This document shows positions 15,487-22,466 of a stretch of DNA of 22,513 bases, in pieces. The first letter of the stretch is position 1. Every line of letters starts with the position of its first letter. The DNA is from a virus. Location: positions 1 to 22,513 of IMG/VR virus record IMGVR_UViG_3300042934_000188. One strand, given 5' to 3'. The notes below the pieces were generated by a model. That model was given only the letters and a program-made list of their open reading frames with translations, was not told the origin of the DNA and made no database searches. The position numbers were made by a program, and so were the translations under genes.

Positions 15487-16195
15487 TATCACCGTTTCGG
15501 TTGTCGCGCAGCCGTCTATCGACGTGGAAGTGACGAACGCTGGGGCTACCGGGCCGGAGGGTCCAGTCGGCCCCGCCGCTGTCTCTGCGGATGACGGCAA
15601 CATTGCGGTCCTTGGCACTGATGACCTGATCTTTGTTCCGGAGTCGGGTGGTGGCGGGGCGGTTGATTCCGTCGCGGGCAAGACCGGTGTTGTGGTTCTT
15701 GAGAAGGCTGATGTTGGTCTCGGGAATGTGGACAACACGGCGGACGCGGATAAGCCTGTTAGCACGGCTACAGCGACCGCTCTGGCGGGTAAGTCGGCCA
15801 CTGGGCACACTCACGCGCAGTCGGACGTTACGGGGCTTACGGCGGCGCTGAGCGCGAAGGCTGATTCCGCCACTGTGACGACTGCGTTGGCAGGGAAGTC
15901 CGACGTCGGGCACACGCACGCACAGTCGGATGTCACAGGGCTGGCTGCGGCGTTGGCTGGGAAGTCGGATACGGGTCACACGCACACGGCGTCGAACGTG
16001 ACGGACTTCAACGCGGCTGCGGATGCGCGTGTCGCGGCGGGCATCATCGTCGCCGGTACTGCGAACAACCCGCACACCACGCAGGGCGCGGCACGGAACA
16101 GTGCGCTTCCTAAGAACTTCTGGCAGTACACGGGCACTGAGGGTGTCGACGACCCGACGAACGCGATCTCTGGCGACGAATGGATTAGCGCATGA
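15479..16195 (+). CDS. Tail fibre with GHTH repeats and a C-terminal tip module
   Basis: A 238-aa fibre. Order: beta-rich start, a short collagen-like GATGPEGPVGPA (22-33), the phage fibre motif KADVGLGNVDNTADADKPVSTAT (76-98), three GHTH blocks (GHTH at 109-112, 144-147, 166-169) each near SDVTGL or SNVTDF, then a tip module from N197 to W235 with NPHTTQ, LPKNFWQYTGTEG and GDEW. HxH motifs in trimeric fibres such as T4 gp37 hold metal ions; that is a plausible role here. The tip module recurs at the C-terminus of the minus-strand gene at 19540-19851. The start overlaps the previous gene by 8 bases and the end overlaps the next by ATGA. Receptor binding is inferred. Confidence 0.85.
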   Translation: MSDITVSVVAQPSIDVEVTNAGATGPEGPVGPAAVSADDGNIAVLGTDDLIFVPESGGGGAVDSVAGKTGVVVLEKADVGLGNVDNTADADKPVSTATATALAGKSATGHTHAQSDVTGLTAALSAKADSATVTTALAGKSDVGHTHAQSDVTGLAAALAGKSDTGHTHTASNVTDFNAAADARVAAGIIVAGTANNPHTTQGAARNSALPKNFWQYTGTEGVDDPTNAISGDEWISA

Positions 16196-17280: not shown

Positions 17281-17335
17281 GTGTATCACCGGTTGATACG
17301 GTCCCTCTTGCACACTGTATCAACCAGTGACACAG
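17281..17335. promoter_or_regulatory. Double dyad operator overlapping a predicted promoter
   Basis: Two 17-bp sites, GTATCA-CCGGT-TGATAC (17283-17299, perfect 6-bp arms) and GTATCA-ACCAG-TGACAC (17317-17333), are inverted relative to each other. Together they make a 14-bp inverted repeat (13 of 14 matches; arms 17286-17299 and 17317-17330) around a 17-base centre. TTGATA at 17293-17298 is a good -35. The -10 would be TGTATC at 17316-17321 (17-base spacing) or TATCAA at 17318-17323 (19-base spacing), so a protein on both dyads would cover the promoter. No T-run follows, arguing against a terminator. A repressor site is inferred, and the HTH protein just downstream is a candidate ligand. Confidence 0.6.
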
Positions 17336-18971: not shown

Positions 18972-19208
18972 ATGTCTGACATTCCCAACGCCGCGCAGCT
19001 CGGTGTGATCGTGAAGAACGCGAAAGCACGCGCCGCCATCTACGGCACCTACGTGGTTGCGATCATTGTGGCCGGCGCCGCACAGGTCGCGTTCGCGTCG
19101 CTCGAGCTCGGACAGCCTGACATCCTTGTCGCGGCTGTTGCGGTGCTCGCCTACCTGGGTGTCCCCGTCGGCACACTCGCCGTCGCGAACACGAACAGCG
19201 CCAGTTGA
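18972..19208 (+). CDS. Holin (two membrane helices)
   Basis: A 78-aa protein with two hydrophobic segments, about 23-45 (AIYGTYVVAIIVAGAAQVAFA) and 53-72 (VAAVAVLAYLGVPVGTLAVA), and polar ends. Size, topology and position after the lysin are those of a phage holin that opens the membrane so lysin can reach the wall. I selected ATG 18972 because GGAGGA (18963-18968) precedes it; an ATGA-coupled ATG at 18954 in the same frame would add six residues and could give a dual-start pair. It is followed by a large hairpin. Confidence 0.75.
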   Translation: MSDIPNAAQLGVIVKNAKARAAIYGTYVVAIIVAGAAQVAFASLELGQPDILVAAVAVLAYLGVPVGTLAVANTNSAS

Positions 19209-19539
19209 TCCGGCACACACCGTTCAAGGGGAACTCGATCCGCCTCGTCTTCGGGTTCCTGTTCCACTGGTTCTAAACACTCACGCCCCCGGGCCTGTCA
19301 CTTCGGTGTCAGGTCCGGGGGCGCTTTCGTGTTAGTACTGAAACGGTATCGTCCGCCAGTACACGAGTCGCAGGTGTGAGCATGGGCCGGGGGAGTCACA
19401 CGGGGAGTCGTCGTCAGCATGGTAGGGGATACCTGGGGGAGTGATCTCGGTGGCTGGTGTGATGGTGGGGCGACGTGTGTCCATACCCCACGGGAGGACG
19501 GTAAACGCTCCCCTGATACATCACCGCTCACGGAAAAAG
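19209..19539. other. Non-coding convergent gap between lysis genes and minus operon
   Basis: 331 bases with no convincing gene. The left part carries the strong terminator hairpin at 19284-19323. The right part is G-rich on the + strand, with three GGGGAGT copies (19390-19396, 19402-19408, 19436-19442). A 40-codon minus reading frame with a CDSC motif (stop near 19298) overlaps the terminator stem and lacks a ribosome site. I see no promoter here. Confidence 0.6.
19284..19323. terminator. Strong UUCG-loop hairpin, probably bidirectional terminator
   Basis: An 18-position stem (19284-19301 with 19306-19323; one G-U pair and one T-T mismatch) closed by TTCG at 19302-19305. The flanks are modestly T-rich on both strands. 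It sits between the converging lysis operon and minus-strand operon and would stop both. Confidence 0.85.
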
Positions 19540-19851
19540 TCAGACGCGGTCCCAGTGGTCGCCATCCTCCGCATCCGTGGGCCCCTCGTCCCCGAAGTAG
19601 GACCAATAGTTGACGGGTAGGCGGGGGTTGCGGGGCGCGTCGCGGCTCGTGTGCGGGTTGAATACCGAACCCTTGGGCAGGTCCAACCATCTCCTAAGGG
19701 CGGCTTCAAGGTTCGCCGCGTCGAAGTGCCCGTCGATGATAAGGACGTCACCGTCGATGTTCCAGAAGACGGACGCGTGCGGTTCAGACTTGCTTAGCAC
19801 CTCCACGAGGCGGTCGATGTTGGGCGTCGGCGGAAGGGCAGACTCGCTCAT
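19540..19851 (-). CDS. Hypothetical protein ending in a copy of the phage fibre-tip module
   Basis: A 103-aa protein, last in the minus operon. Residues 1-64 (NIDRLVEVLSKS ... VFWNIDGDVLIIDGHFDAANLEAALRRWL) are an alpha/beta domain I cannot assign. Residues 65-100 read NPHTSRDAPRN, LPVNYWSYFGDEGPTD, GDHW and align with the last 42 residues of the tail fibre (NPHTTQGAARN, LPKNFWQYTGTEGVDD, GDEW), with about 19 identities over 36 positions by hand. The start is ATG 19851 after GAGGAA (7-base spacing); GTG 19857 is only one base from that site. There is no signal peptide or TM, so it is cytoplasmic as written. It could be a fibre-module binder, decoy or chaperone; this is inference. Confidence 0.7.
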   Translation of the reverse strand: MSESALPPTPNIDRLVEVLSKSEPHASVFWNIDGDVLIIDGHFDAANLEAALRRWLDLPKGSVFNPHTSRDAPRNPRLPVNYWSYFGDEGPTDAEDGDHWDRV

Positions 19852-19853
19852 GT

Positions 19854-20009
19854 TCACATTCCTCGGGTGTACTTGCGTAGGTAGTCCACGATGACGTCGG
19901 TGAGGCTCCGACCCTCCGACGCAGCTTTCTCCTTGGCCTTCGCCTTCAGGTCCGGGGGGATACGGAAGTTCGACACCGGAGTAGCACCCTCACCCTTAGC
20001 CCTAGCCAT
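19854..20009 (-). CDS. Ribbon-helix-helix protein, 51 aa
   Basis: A 51-aa gene below common ORF cut-offs. The translation has a short basic arm (MARAKGEGATPV), a beta-strand SNFRIPPDLK, then helix-turn-helix segments AKAKEKAASEGRSLTDVIVDYLRKYTRG. This is the ribbon-helix-helix (Arc/CopG) plan: strand, helix A, G turn, helix B with V-x2-Y-L. Such proteins are dimeric DNA-binding repressors or antitoxins. It overlaps the preceding gene's end by 8 bases and ends just before the next start, so it is translated by coupling (no Shine-Dalgarno). No toxin is obvious; the neighbouring 66-aa protein is one candidate partner. It could repress its own promoter at 20990-21018. Confidence 0.78.
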   Translation of the reverse strand: MARAKGEGATPVSNFRIPPDLKAKAKEKAASEGRSLTDVIVDYLRKYTRGM

Positions 20010-20202
20010 GGTCTGCGGCGGGGACGCACAACGCGGCGTTCCACGAGACGATGTCGCCCTCGTCGGTGAGGATCATTACGGTGGGCTGATCGATGTACGC
20101 GATTACCCGGCCGGTCACGTGAACGCCGCGAGGCGCCACCGCATACACGCCGTTCACCCGCTGGCCGTCGCGAACCCACTTCTCATAGACGCCCATCACC
20201 AT
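20002..20202 (-). CDS. Small beta-rich hypothetical protein
   Basis: A 66-aa protein. It starts with a helical MVMGVYEKWVRDGQRVNG stretch and then a series of short strands (VYAVAPRGVHVTGRVIAYI, PTVMILTDEGDIVSWNAAL), which looks like a small SH3-like barrel. No family is recognised. A good GGGAGG site precedes the start; ATG 20202 is 3-4 bases away and ATG 20196 is better spaced, so the true start may be either. It is embedded in the minus operon and overlaps both neighbours, which argues for a real gene. Confidence 0.68.
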   Translation of the reverse strand: MVMGVYEKWVRDGQRVNGVYAVAPRGVHVTGRVIAYIDQPTVMILTDEGDIVSWNAALCVPAADHG

Positions 20203-20519
20203 TCACCTCCCGCGACCCATGCTTCACCGGAACGCTCGGCTTGCTTGTAGGTGAGGCGCCACGTGGACGGATGCTCGAGCATCACGAGACCGCGACGGTA
20301 CACGTTGTAGCCGATCCAGGAGCTCGTGATCTTATACGACCGCAGCGACCAAGGGGTCCACTCTCCTACCGGGTGGCCGTCTTCCGCCGGGGGATGGGTT
20401 ATCGGCAGGACGGGGACATGGCGGGCGCGAGCGGAGGTGAGCGACATATCTGCAACTCGCGGCGCTGTCGCGATGGCGAGCAGCAGGCGAGAGGCGCGCA
20501 TCCTGACCGCCCCCTTCAT
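20196..20519 (-). CDS. Hypothetical protein of the minus operon
   Basis: A 107-aa protein (or 83 aa if it starts at the internal Met at 20447). The first 25 residues are Ala/Arg/Leu-rich. The conserved-looking part is WTPWSLRSYKITSSWIGYNVYRRGLVMLEHPSTWRLTYKQAERSG, with many Trp and Tyr residues, suggesting a small beta-sheet domain with an aromatic surface. No catalytic motif or membrane helix is seen. ATG 20519 overlaps the previous stop as ATGA. Function unknown. Confidence 0.6.
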   Translation of the reverse strand: MKGAVRMRASRLLLAIATAPRVADMSLTSARARHVPVLPITHPPAEDGHPVGEWTPWSLRSYKITSSWIGYNVYRRGLVMLEHPSTWRLTYKQAERSGEAWVAGGEW

Positions 20520-20833
20520 GTCCCGCTCCTATCATCGCCAGTCCACCATGTCGGCTGGGGCACGAGTCGCCCGTGCGGTCCCTGGTGCCCGTCGTAGAAG
20601 ATGCACCGGTAAGCGAGATCGCCCACGTGCTGCTCGGCCCGACAGTTCGACCAGAACTCGGCGCGCTCGGCATCCACTACCGGCGCCGCACCCGAGCCGA
20701 GGACCATCACCTCGTCCGCCGAGCCAGGCCACGCCCGGACGAACCGCAGATACCTGGTCTCCGAGTAGTCGCGCCGCCAGCGGGGCTTCTGGTTGCGCCG
20801 CCGATGCCACGCTGGCTTCCTAGTGCTTGTCAC
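20516..20833 (-). CDS. Basic protein with a Cys/His cluster, possible zinc binder
   Basis: A 105-aa protein. The N-terminal 30 residues are strongly basic and aromatic (RKPAWHRRRNQKPRWRRDY). The second half has CRAEQH, then RCIFYDGHQGPHGRL: C64-x4-H69, C77-x5-H83-x3-H87 by my count. This arrangement could bind a metal, although it is not a named zinc finger I can identify. The start is GTG 20833 with an excellent AAGGAG site five to six bases upstream. It is the second gene of the minus operon, 18 bases after the 43-aa membrane gene. Confidence 0.7.
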   Translation of the reverse strand: MTSTRKPAWHRRRNQKPRWRRDYSETRYLRFVRAWPGSADEVMVLGSGAAPVVDAERAEFWSNCRAEQHVGDLAYRCIFYDGHQGPHGRLVPQPTWWTGDDRSGT

Positions 20834-20851
20834 GTCAACTCCTTTTGCTTG

Positions 20852-20983
20852 TCAGCCGCAATCGCCTGGGAACAGCGAAAGGAAGATAATCATCACGGCC
20901 GGGACTGACGCCACCAACGCGACCGCGAGCCCTGCGAAGAAAGCCCACACGACGCGGACCGTGTTGTCGGGTGTCCATCTCAT
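20852..20983 (-). CDS. 43-aa single-TM membrane protein, first gene of the minus operon
   Basis: A short gene I found by translating the gap between the GTG gene and the promoter. Sequence: MRWTPDNTVRVV, then a 25-residue hydrophobic stretch (WAFFAGLAVALVASVPAV, continuing MIIFLSLF), ending PGDCG. It has one membrane helix, possibly bent at the Pro. The ATG lies 6 bases after a -10 element, so the mRNA would be leaderless, common in actinobacteria. It starts the operon that contains the ribbon-helix-helix and fibre-tip genes. A competing 62-aa reading frame in another phase is rich in Arg and lacks any ribosome site. Superinfection exclusion is one possibility; not shown. Confidence 0.62.
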   Translation of the reverse strand: MRWTPDNTVRVVWAFFAGLAVALVASVPAVMIIFLSLFPGDCG

Positions 20984-20989
20984 GCCTGG

Positions 20990-21022
20990 AGTCTACCAGG
21001 CGTAAAGACAGATGTAAAGACA
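20990..21022 (-). promoter_or_regulatory. Leaderless promoter with tandem 9-bp repeats
   Basis: On the minus strand: -35 TTTACA (21018-21013), 17-base spacer, extended -10 TGG-TAGACT (hexamer 20995-20990), then ATG 6 bases later. On the + strand two exact copies of GTAAAGACA (21002-21010 and 21014-21022, 12-base period) overlap the -35 and spacer, so a protein on them would control the promoter. Being next to attP, they could also be excisionase sites. Confidence 0.62.
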
Positions 21023-21100
21023 AACCGAGGTGAGACTACGCCCGCCCCGTAGTATCGGATGCGATAACCCGGTGGCGGTTTAGTGGCTGTTTTCAGAAGC

Positions 21101-21170
21101 TACCTGGAACTCCCTGTGGCTACCGTCCCGCAGAATCACGGGAAACGGTAGAGGGAAGTAGGCCCAGGTA
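21101..21170. repeat. Extended imperfect inverted repeat within attP
   Basis: Nested complementary arms: TACCTGG (21101-21107) with CCAGGTA (21164-21170); TCCCT (21111-21115) with AGGGA (21152-21156); CTACCGT (21120-21126) with ACGGTAG (21145-21151); CCCG with CGGG around an 8-base loop. It could be protein-binding DNA of the P arm or a structured transcript. Confidence 0.5.
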
Positions 21171-21190
21171 ACCGCGACTGCATACCAGAC

Positions 21191-21230
21191 TGCTCAGCAT
21201 TCGGGGGTTCGAATCCCTCACTCGCCACCA
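21191..21230 (+). other. tRNA 3'-end sequence (attP core), class II type possible
   Basis: GGGGG-TTCGAAT-CCCTC (21203-21219) is a T arm, followed by ACTCGCC, discriminator A and CCA (ending 21230). No 5' acceptor GGCGAGT or D arm is found upstream, so this is only the tRNA end that the phage carries to rebuild the host gene. The preceding CTCAGCATTC could be a long variable arm; tRNA-Tyr is my weak guess. Confidence 0.75.
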
Positions 21231-21258
21231 GCCCCACATGCCCGGAAAATCAACGAAA

Positions 21259-21290
21259 CCGCCCCGCCAGTCTCCGGACAGGCGGGGCGG
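21259..21290 (-). terminator. Terminator of the integrase transcript
   Basis: A perfect 10-bp stem (CCGCCCCGCC 21259-21268 and GGCGGGGCGG 21281-21290) with a 12-base loop. On the minus strand it is followed by TTTCGTTGATTTT. It lies 9 bases beyond the integrase stop codon and prevents transcription into the attP core. Confidence 0.8.
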
Positions 21291-21299
21291 ATTTCTGCG

Positions 21300-22466
21300 C
21301 TAGTGGCTATTTAGTGGCGGTTTTGCCGACAGGAGTTTCTGAACCGTCTCCGCCGACGCCGGCCCACGCGACGCCTGCTCCACGTAATGCCGCAGATTCC
21401 CGAAACCCGTATGCCCAAGCTGGTCACGCGCCGCCTCAACACCCAGATCCTCAGCCAGCAGCGTCGCCACAGCCTTACGAAACGCCCCAGGAGTCACCGA
21501 CGCGTAACCACTCCCCTCTAGAGCGGCCCGCCAATCCCTGCGGAGGTTGTCAGGCCACCTCGGGGTTCCGGCCGCAGAGGGGAACACTAGATCCGAGTAC
21601 GCACCTGCCGCACGTGCCACGAGCATCGGAACAACGAACACGGGCAACTCGAGCTCACGCCGCGACTTGTCCGTCTTCAGCGTCTCCTTCACGACAAGCT
21701 TCCCGTCGATGCTCCGCGCAACGGTTCCGTTGATCGTGACCGTGGGTGGCATCGAGTCGAAGTTGAAGTCGGACCACCGCAACGCCAGAACCTCGGACGT
21801 GCGGGCGCCGGTTGCGGCGTACATGTCCATCGTGTCCCGCAGGCTTCCGTTCCGTGGACGGTTGTACCGGTCGGACCCGGCATCCCACACCTCCAACAGT
21901 CCGCGAATCGCAGCGATGTCAGCCGCACGCAACGCCTTCACCTTCGGCTTCGTCCGCGTCACCGCCTTCGTCTCCGGAACCGGGTTCGAGTCGACCGCAC
22001 CCGCATACACGGCATACGCCATCATGTGCTTCAACACGATCCGAACCGTCCGCGCCTGCCCGGGAGTCTTCTTCGCCACCGCCTGAATGTAACGGTTCAG
22101 TTTCGCGGGGGTAGCCTCCCCAACCCGAACCCCAGACAAACCCCGCAGAACAGCCTTCAACGCCTCCTGGTAGGTGAGTTTCGTCCCGTCCGCCAGGTTC
22201 GTGTCCGCCAGCATCTCCGCCTTCCACGCATCCGCCAACTGCTGAAGTGTGGAGTCACGTGTGATGAGATCCCCGGCCGGCGCCAGACGATCCCGCAGAG
22301 CCTCCTTGAGCGCGTTGACCGCGAGGGCCTTAGTCCGCCCAGTCCGCATCATCCGACGCGTCTCACCGTCACTGTCGCGGTAGTAGGCGCTGGCCGCAGG
22401 CTTCCCGTTGTGAGTGAACGTACGGATCGTCCCGTACGTCTCCAGGGGGAGCGGTGGCCTAGCCAT
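21300..22466 (-). CDS. int: Tyrosine recombinase integrase
   Basis: A 388-aa site-specific integrase. Residues 1-65 form an arm-binding-type N-terminal domain, about 70-165 a SAM-like core-binding domain (STLQQLADAWKAEM ... LTYQEALKAVLRGL), and about 175-388 the catalytic domain. Catalytic residues: R222 (ATGARTSEVLALRW), K264 or K267 (TLKTDKSRRE), R330, H352 (LGHTGF) and nucleophile Y361 (RHYVEQ). The HxxR box reads GAFR: Gly at 327 replaces the usual His. It is next to a matching attP, so it probably integrates the phage into a tRNA gene. ATG 22466 has AGGA upstream. A -10-like TACAAT lies 31 bases upstream. Confidence 0.93.
   Translation of the reverse strand: MARPPLPLETYGTIRTFTHNGKPAASAYYRDSDGETRRMMRTGRTKALAVNALKEALRDRLAPAGDLITRDSTLQQLADAWKAEMLADTNLADGTKLTYQEALKAVLRGLSGVRVGEATPAKLNRYIQAVAKKTPGQARTVRIVLKHMMAYAVYAGAVDSNPVPETKAVTRTKPKVKALRAADIAAIRGLLEVWDAGSDRYNRPRNGSLRDTMDMYAATGARTSEVLALRWSDFNFDSMPPTVTINGTVARSIDGKLVVKETLKTDKSRRELELPVFVVPMLVARAAGAYSDLVFPSAAGTPRWPDNLRRDWRAALEGSGYASVTPGAFRKAVATLLAEDLGVEAARDQLGHTGFGNLRHYVEQASRGPASAETVQKLLSAKPPLNSH

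Follow-up and report, generated by a model that had tools for sequence, protein, structure and literature searches.

The locus at 19540-19851 raises a simple question: why does a small minus-strand gene, positioned between the lysis genes and attP, end in a piece that resembles the tip of the phage's tail fibre, and could this piece have a role there in superinfection exclusion or in fibre folding, as the original prediction suggested? The window, i.e. the whole stretch of DNA analysed, is a complete virus record of 22,513 bases with siphophage head, tail, lysis and integrase genes. Its relevant features are collected in Table 1.

Table 1. Features of the window discussed in the text (L009 and L027 are related phage contigs)
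Feature	Coordinates	Strand	Remarks
Tail fibre, 238 aa	15479..16195	+	Shaft collagen-like, with Pfam 'phage tail repeat' (PF12789)
Fibre C-terminal tip module	16055..16192	+	Conserved in 25 related phage contigs
Downstream gene, 312 aa	16192..17130	+	Overlaps fibre stop; unrelated genes in its place in relatives
Mosaic accessory cassette, ~1.5 kb	19523..21025	-	Absent from four relatives (empty site)
Small accessory gene	19540..19851	-	103 aa; unique N-terminal ~60 aa and C-terminal fibre-tip module
Fibre-tip module of small gene	19540..19671	-	GSVFNPHTSRDAPRNPRLPVNYWSYFGDEGPTDAEDGDHWDRV; C-terminal ~43 residues
Arc-like ribbon-helix-helix gene	19854..20009	-	Directly upstream of small gene; 88% identical homologue in L027
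66-aa operon gene	20002..20202	-	L009 homologue fused to C-terminus of 105-aa protein
107-aa operon gene	20196..20519	-	N-terminus (~residues 7-56) joined to tip module in L009
105-aa operon gene	20516..20833	-	Cys/His-rich C-terminus; halves in two separate L009 genes
43-aa probable membrane protein	20852..20983	-	First ORF of operon; start ~6 nt past -10-like box
Promoter-like site	20990..21018	-	TTTACA-17-TAGACT, TG before -10 (extended -10); similar sequence in L027
attP-like region, conserved	21026..21299	.	tRNA 3'-end-like sequence ~21190-21230, next to integrase

Homology between the small gene and the fibre tip

The local alignment of fibre residues 193-235 with the small product obtained a score of 117, compared with a maximum of 62 in 5000 composition-preserving shuffles, and a search of the record with the small product reported the fibre as the only other match (E-value 5.3e-10, 52% identity). 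The alignment comprises 22 identities in ~44 columns, with one 3-residue gap. Judging from the sequences, the C-terminal ~43 residues of the small protein are homologous to the last ~43 of the fibre; the gene, its coordinates, the opposite strands and the tip similarity were all as originally described. At the DNA level the homology is visible as 12 identical bases at the NPHT motif, and the two tip copies form an inverted repeat of 34 nt (74% identical). The codon use does differ between the two genes, as had been claimed: the small gene has a GC3 of 0.83, the fibre one of 0.70, and 7 of the 22 identical residues are encoded by different codons. All residues common to the tips (G, N, H, A.RN, L, N.W.Y.G, P and GD.W) are present in the small gene. 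With a tip profile in which both minus-strand copies were included, the window gene scored 82 bits and the L009 gene 75 bits against a background of at most 8.4. Chance similarity is untenable because L009 provides an independent second case (see below).

The ATG at 19851, with GAGG ~9 nt upstream, is the start that matches the original end coordinate of the gene; the alternative GTG at 19857 overlaps the Arc stop and would yield a product of 105 aa. The N-terminal ~60 residues matched neither the fibre nor any related locus, which agrees with the claim that this part is unrelated to the fibre. No signal peptide, lipobox or membrane segment was predicted (the maximum 19-residue mean hydropathy is 0.69), nor does the N-terminus contain a hydrophobic stretch. 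Searches of PADLOC (2023), Pfam, PHROG and NCBIfam with the small protein returned no match above the cut-off, and a Pfam SPR1 match (E-value 0.019), which lies below it, was taken as noise. Structure prediction, one of the checks proposed originally, gave an AlphaFold model of the small protein that has low confidence overall (pLDDT 64); its tip part is better (pLDDT ~74-85) and forms a short two-stranded element. When the tip was searched against PDB and PHROG, nothing meaningful was obtained.

In IMG/VR we identified 25 further contigs with a fibre ending in the tip module; 24 of them come from two metagenomes, the other from record 2838243717. The same contig population, and nothing besides, was recovered with a degenerate DNA pattern for the module. 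The tip-bearing relatives constitute one group of phages only. Among cultured phages there was no homologue of the small protein and none of the tip beyond noise, direct scans with the small protein as a single query gave no match, and GTDB genomes yielded no relative by either the small protein or the tip profile; the GTDB scans need conserved 8-residue peptides, so that distant forms could escape.

A second minus-strand copy of the module

L009 (IMGVR_UViG_3300042923_000479) carries both a fibre tip and a minus-strand tip gene near the integrase, beside attP, and is the only one of the 25 related contigs with two tip copies; with the window, this makes two known instances of minus-strand tip genes. 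The original prediction had proposed to look for such a pair in related phages: the arrangement does recur, but in this one contig only and with a different N-terminus. In L009 the minus-strand tip is preceded by the N-terminal part of a homologue of the 107-aa operon protein (70% identity over 50 residues), in the window by the unique N-terminus described above. The same module on different N-termini bears out recombination (gene fusion), which had been considered as a possible origin.

The two minus-strand modules share SRDAPRNP and VNYWSY as well as a 94-bp DNA block that is 85% identical (window 19579-19672, L009 13907-14000), and in a tree calculated from 49 columns only they are separated from the 25 fibre tips with support of 97/95. 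Both are ~50% identical to every fibre tip (the window copy is 51% identical to its own fibre and up to 53% to others). Since the minus-strand copies form a lineage of their own, neither is a recent copy of the fibre of its own phage, and the notion of a recent self-copy is not supported. The C-terminus of the small gene is a diverged paralogue of the conserved fibre C-terminal module of this phage group; the sequences suggest that the module reached the accessory locus a single time, and that it diverged and changed N-termini afterwards.

Between the two minus-strand copies, the NG86 method gave dN of 0.33 and dS of 0.32 over 46 codons, values that fit weak constraint as well as none and cannot distinguish between them. 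The mismatches in the core fall on the three codon positions as 6/3/5, i.e. third positions are not enriched, and on both grounds constraint at the protein level is not demonstrated. The similar dN and dS would also be expected from neutral domain capture, in which the 3' end of a fibre gene recombined onto small ORFs in a fast-shuffling attP-side locus and the tip has no role there. Against this stands the 31-codon core of the module, which is in frame and free of stops and indels in both minus-strand proteins, despite substantial divergence, and so does the coding-like GC3 of the small gene.

A mosaic accessory locus at the prophage end

The flanks of the cassette (19200-19526 and 21026-21300) are conserved in many relatives, mostly at 86-96% identity, while the interior varies: it measures ~280 bp in L003 and L028, ~410 bp in L006, ~970 bp in L009 and ~950 bp in L027, and in L004, L010, L012 and L029 the two flanks are joined directly. 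In L027 the Arc-like gene is the last cassette gene and the tip gene is cleanly missing (~320 bases). The tip gene therefore comes and goes as a single-gene cassette. Its presence in one phage and precise absence from close relatives identify it as a moron, i.e. an accessory gene, within a mosaic operon on the minus strand at the end of the prophage. The right flank is probably attP, to judge from its sequence; no tRNA gene was called in this region. The accessory position near attP, as originally described, is supported by the cassette between the lysis genes and the attP-like region and by the empty sites.

The promoter-like site at the head of the operon occurs once, with 0.4 such sites expected, and downstream of the small gene there are a GC-rich stem (19284-19323) and a minus-strand terminator-like site (19216-19198). 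Expression of the small gene in the lysogen is plausible, considering its position and the promoter-like site. The locus resembles phage moron or lysogenic-conversion loci in its variable cassette, empty sites, promoter-like site of its own and dispensable genes, but differs from the usual ones in that one cargo gene bears a module of the phage's structural fibre.

The mosaicism extends throughout the operon and, together with the empty and short cassettes of the relatives, argues for neutral capture: parts of the 105-, 107- and 66-aa proteins are re-joined differently in L009, where the homologue of the 66-aa protein is joined with the C-terminal part of the 105-aa one. Taking both sides together, we consider neutral capture nearly as likely as the explanation preferred below. 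Within L009 13443-14319, the operon proteins are re-joined at domain borders, suggesting frequent exchange of C-terminal modules.

The gene of the Arc-like repressor adjoins the small gene or overlaps with it, which could indicate a toxin-antitoxin pair. However, L027 has the Arc homologue without the tip gene, and in L009, which has the tip gene, no Arc homologue was found. The pairing is thus not conserved, a type II toxin-antitoxin pair was rejected, and we regard this explanation as highly improbable.

Three other elements were noted in the window. The 43-aa probable membrane protein (20852-20983, minus strand) is possibly leaderless and is itself a candidate exclusion protein. A 62-aa minus-strand ORF (MYQGSVYRPP...CDSPGPCS...YWRT; window 19332-19521), which starts at the cassette boundary, is intact in L003, L004, L006, L009, L010, L012, L027, L028 and L029, the empty-site phages included, and frameshifted in the window (35 aa, with a possible restart giving 50 aa). 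Window 17282-17334 contains two near-palindromic, operator-like 19-bp sites, TGTATCACCGGTTGATACG and TGTATCAACCAGTGACACA, 15 bp apart, with 5 matches in the window (both strands counted) vs 0.37 expected; similar palindromes are present in L010 and L031.

The fibre tip and the gene that follows it

In the window fibre and those of the 25 related contigs (26 fibres) the tip is the invariant end, while the shafts vary. Members of the 312-aa family directly follow the fibre in most phages of the group; unrelated genes take this place in L008, in L012/L021/L029 and in L030/L031, with at least four unrelated types in all. The correlation between tip identity and downstream-gene identity is 0.04. 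Because the tip is constant and the downstream gene is exchanged, we infer that the swapped gene rather than the tip is likely to be the host-range determinant. The simple reading, in which the downstream adhesin docks onto the tip, was rejected, as the same tip is followed by at least four unrelated genes and the identities are uncorrelated. The exchange of gene types after the tip makes this a likely site of adhesin swapping, with the tip module as its boundary.

The model of the 312-aa protein (pLDDT 69) resembles JBD30 baseplate chains (E-value 2.8e-7, TM ~0.5); its matches in PDB 8rk3 are chains G and K, with 13% identity. These chains are probably the paired JBD30 fibre proteins gp47 and gp48, since gp47 and gp48 are reported to fold alike (PMC11445458). 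The modelled similarity is consistent with a fibre or adhesin role of the 312-aa protein (PMC11445458), and the likeness to the JBD30 baseplate fibre proteins (PDB 8rk3; PMC11445458) concerns this neighbour of the fibre, not the minus-strand gene.

The derivation of the module from a fibre C-terminus is what would be expected of a protein that masks the receptor and excludes superinfecting phages at the surface, as the original prediction proposed. Yet the small protein has neither a signal peptide nor a membrane segment, and receptor specificity is unlikely to reside in a tip that does not change when the adhesin gene is exchanged; occupation of the receptor is disfavoured, and its chances appear slim indeed. 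The inverted orientation of the two tip copies and their inverted repeat would also suit an invertible fibre-tip cassette with switching of the Mu/P1 type. The tips are only ~50% identical, the adhesin and lysis genes lie between them and the integrase is the only recombinase recognised, for which reasons such a cassette was rejected as implausible, and we consider its probability negligible.

Possible functions of the tip-bearing protein

Our preferred explanation, put forward tentatively as possible rather than probable, is that the small protein may be an intracellular decoy or poison of fibre assembly in related superinfecting phages. It would be made in the lysogen, stay in the cytosol and act on the fibre pathway of related phages infecting that lysogen. 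There its tip module would pair with the fibre tip's partners, or compete for them, while the fibres fold, trimerise or attach, and the progeny phages would then bear defective fibres; the N-terminal part, which differs between the two known cases, would provide bulk or an anchor. The superinfection idea thus survives in a putative intracellular form only.

Several observations argue for assembly interference. The homology is well above chance, and the module is used twice, in frame near the C-terminus, behind unrelated N-termini in the same operon; the common lineage of the minus-strand copies indicates that it has persisted in this locus. The locus is dispensable, as seen from the single-gene absence in L027 and the four empty sites, and the coding-like GC3 and the promoter-like site are further points in favour of this explanation. 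The target would be common, since all 26 fibres share the conserved tip although the adhesin downstream of it varies. There is also precedent in the prophage proteins Tai and Tab: according to PMC11364771, Tab blocks tail assembly and Tai acts on the central tail fibre, the Tai versions tested acting on the central tail fibre or the tail needle. On the other hand, the phage shares the tip, so that self-poisoning would be a risk when the prophage is induced; a counter-gene, such as phi80 carries in the Tai case (PMC11364771), was not identified here. Only two instances are known, and the low-confidence model of the small protein also counts against assembly interference. The similar dN and dS of the two copies and the readiness with which the locus shuffles fragments likewise speak against a function.

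Like Tai and Tab, the small gene is an accessory gene of the prophage or satellite kind that would act intracellularly on tail or fibre assembly, but in the section of PMC11364771 concerned Tai is not presented as fibre-derived. The comparison is one of proposed mode of action only and not of sequence, and in view of the database results given above we do not file the small protein as a Tai or Tab member.

Proteins of the HK97 gp15 type and P22 SieA are membrane proteins that stop DNA entry, unlike the small tip protein with its lack of a membrane segment. They share with it the status of prophage-encoded accessory genes, and as superinfection-exclusion proteins they limit superinfection (PMC11364771; PMC10883804).

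Two further roles were weighed. The shared tip module could mean homotypic contact between two proteins encoded by one phage, so that the small protein might serve the phage's own fibre as a chaperone or help in its assembly, an alternative already raised in the original prediction. However, L004, L010, L012 and L029 have highly similar fibre tips and an empty site, and the opposite strand and lysogeny-side position of the gene also speak against it, which makes this role very unlikely. The small protein could instead be a sponge that shields the phage's fibres from tip-recognising proteins of the host or of rivals. The module retains the residues common to all tips, and there are documented defences in which tail fibres are recognised (Tai, Septu and the ISG15-like system; PMC11364771), but no such defence was identified in these hosts and the position of the gene points to lysogenic, not lytic, expression; we consider a sponge quite unlikely.

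Implications

Independent of function, a module of a structural protein is documented here moving into accessory genes, and its function is made testable by a natural comparison between empty sites, a cassette lacking this one gene and the two different fusions. We speculate, while regarding it as rather unlikely, that this phage group may have converted part of its own conserved fibre tip into a C-terminal targeting module that can be swapped among proteins expressed in the lysogen. Such proteins would act as poisons or decoys in the fibre assembly of any related superinfecting phage, whatever its adhesin type. If the module has the same action in the accessory protein as in the fibre, a part of a phage structural protein would serve as an exclusion factor, and the conserved tip would then be a target common to the whole group, whichever adhesin its members carry.
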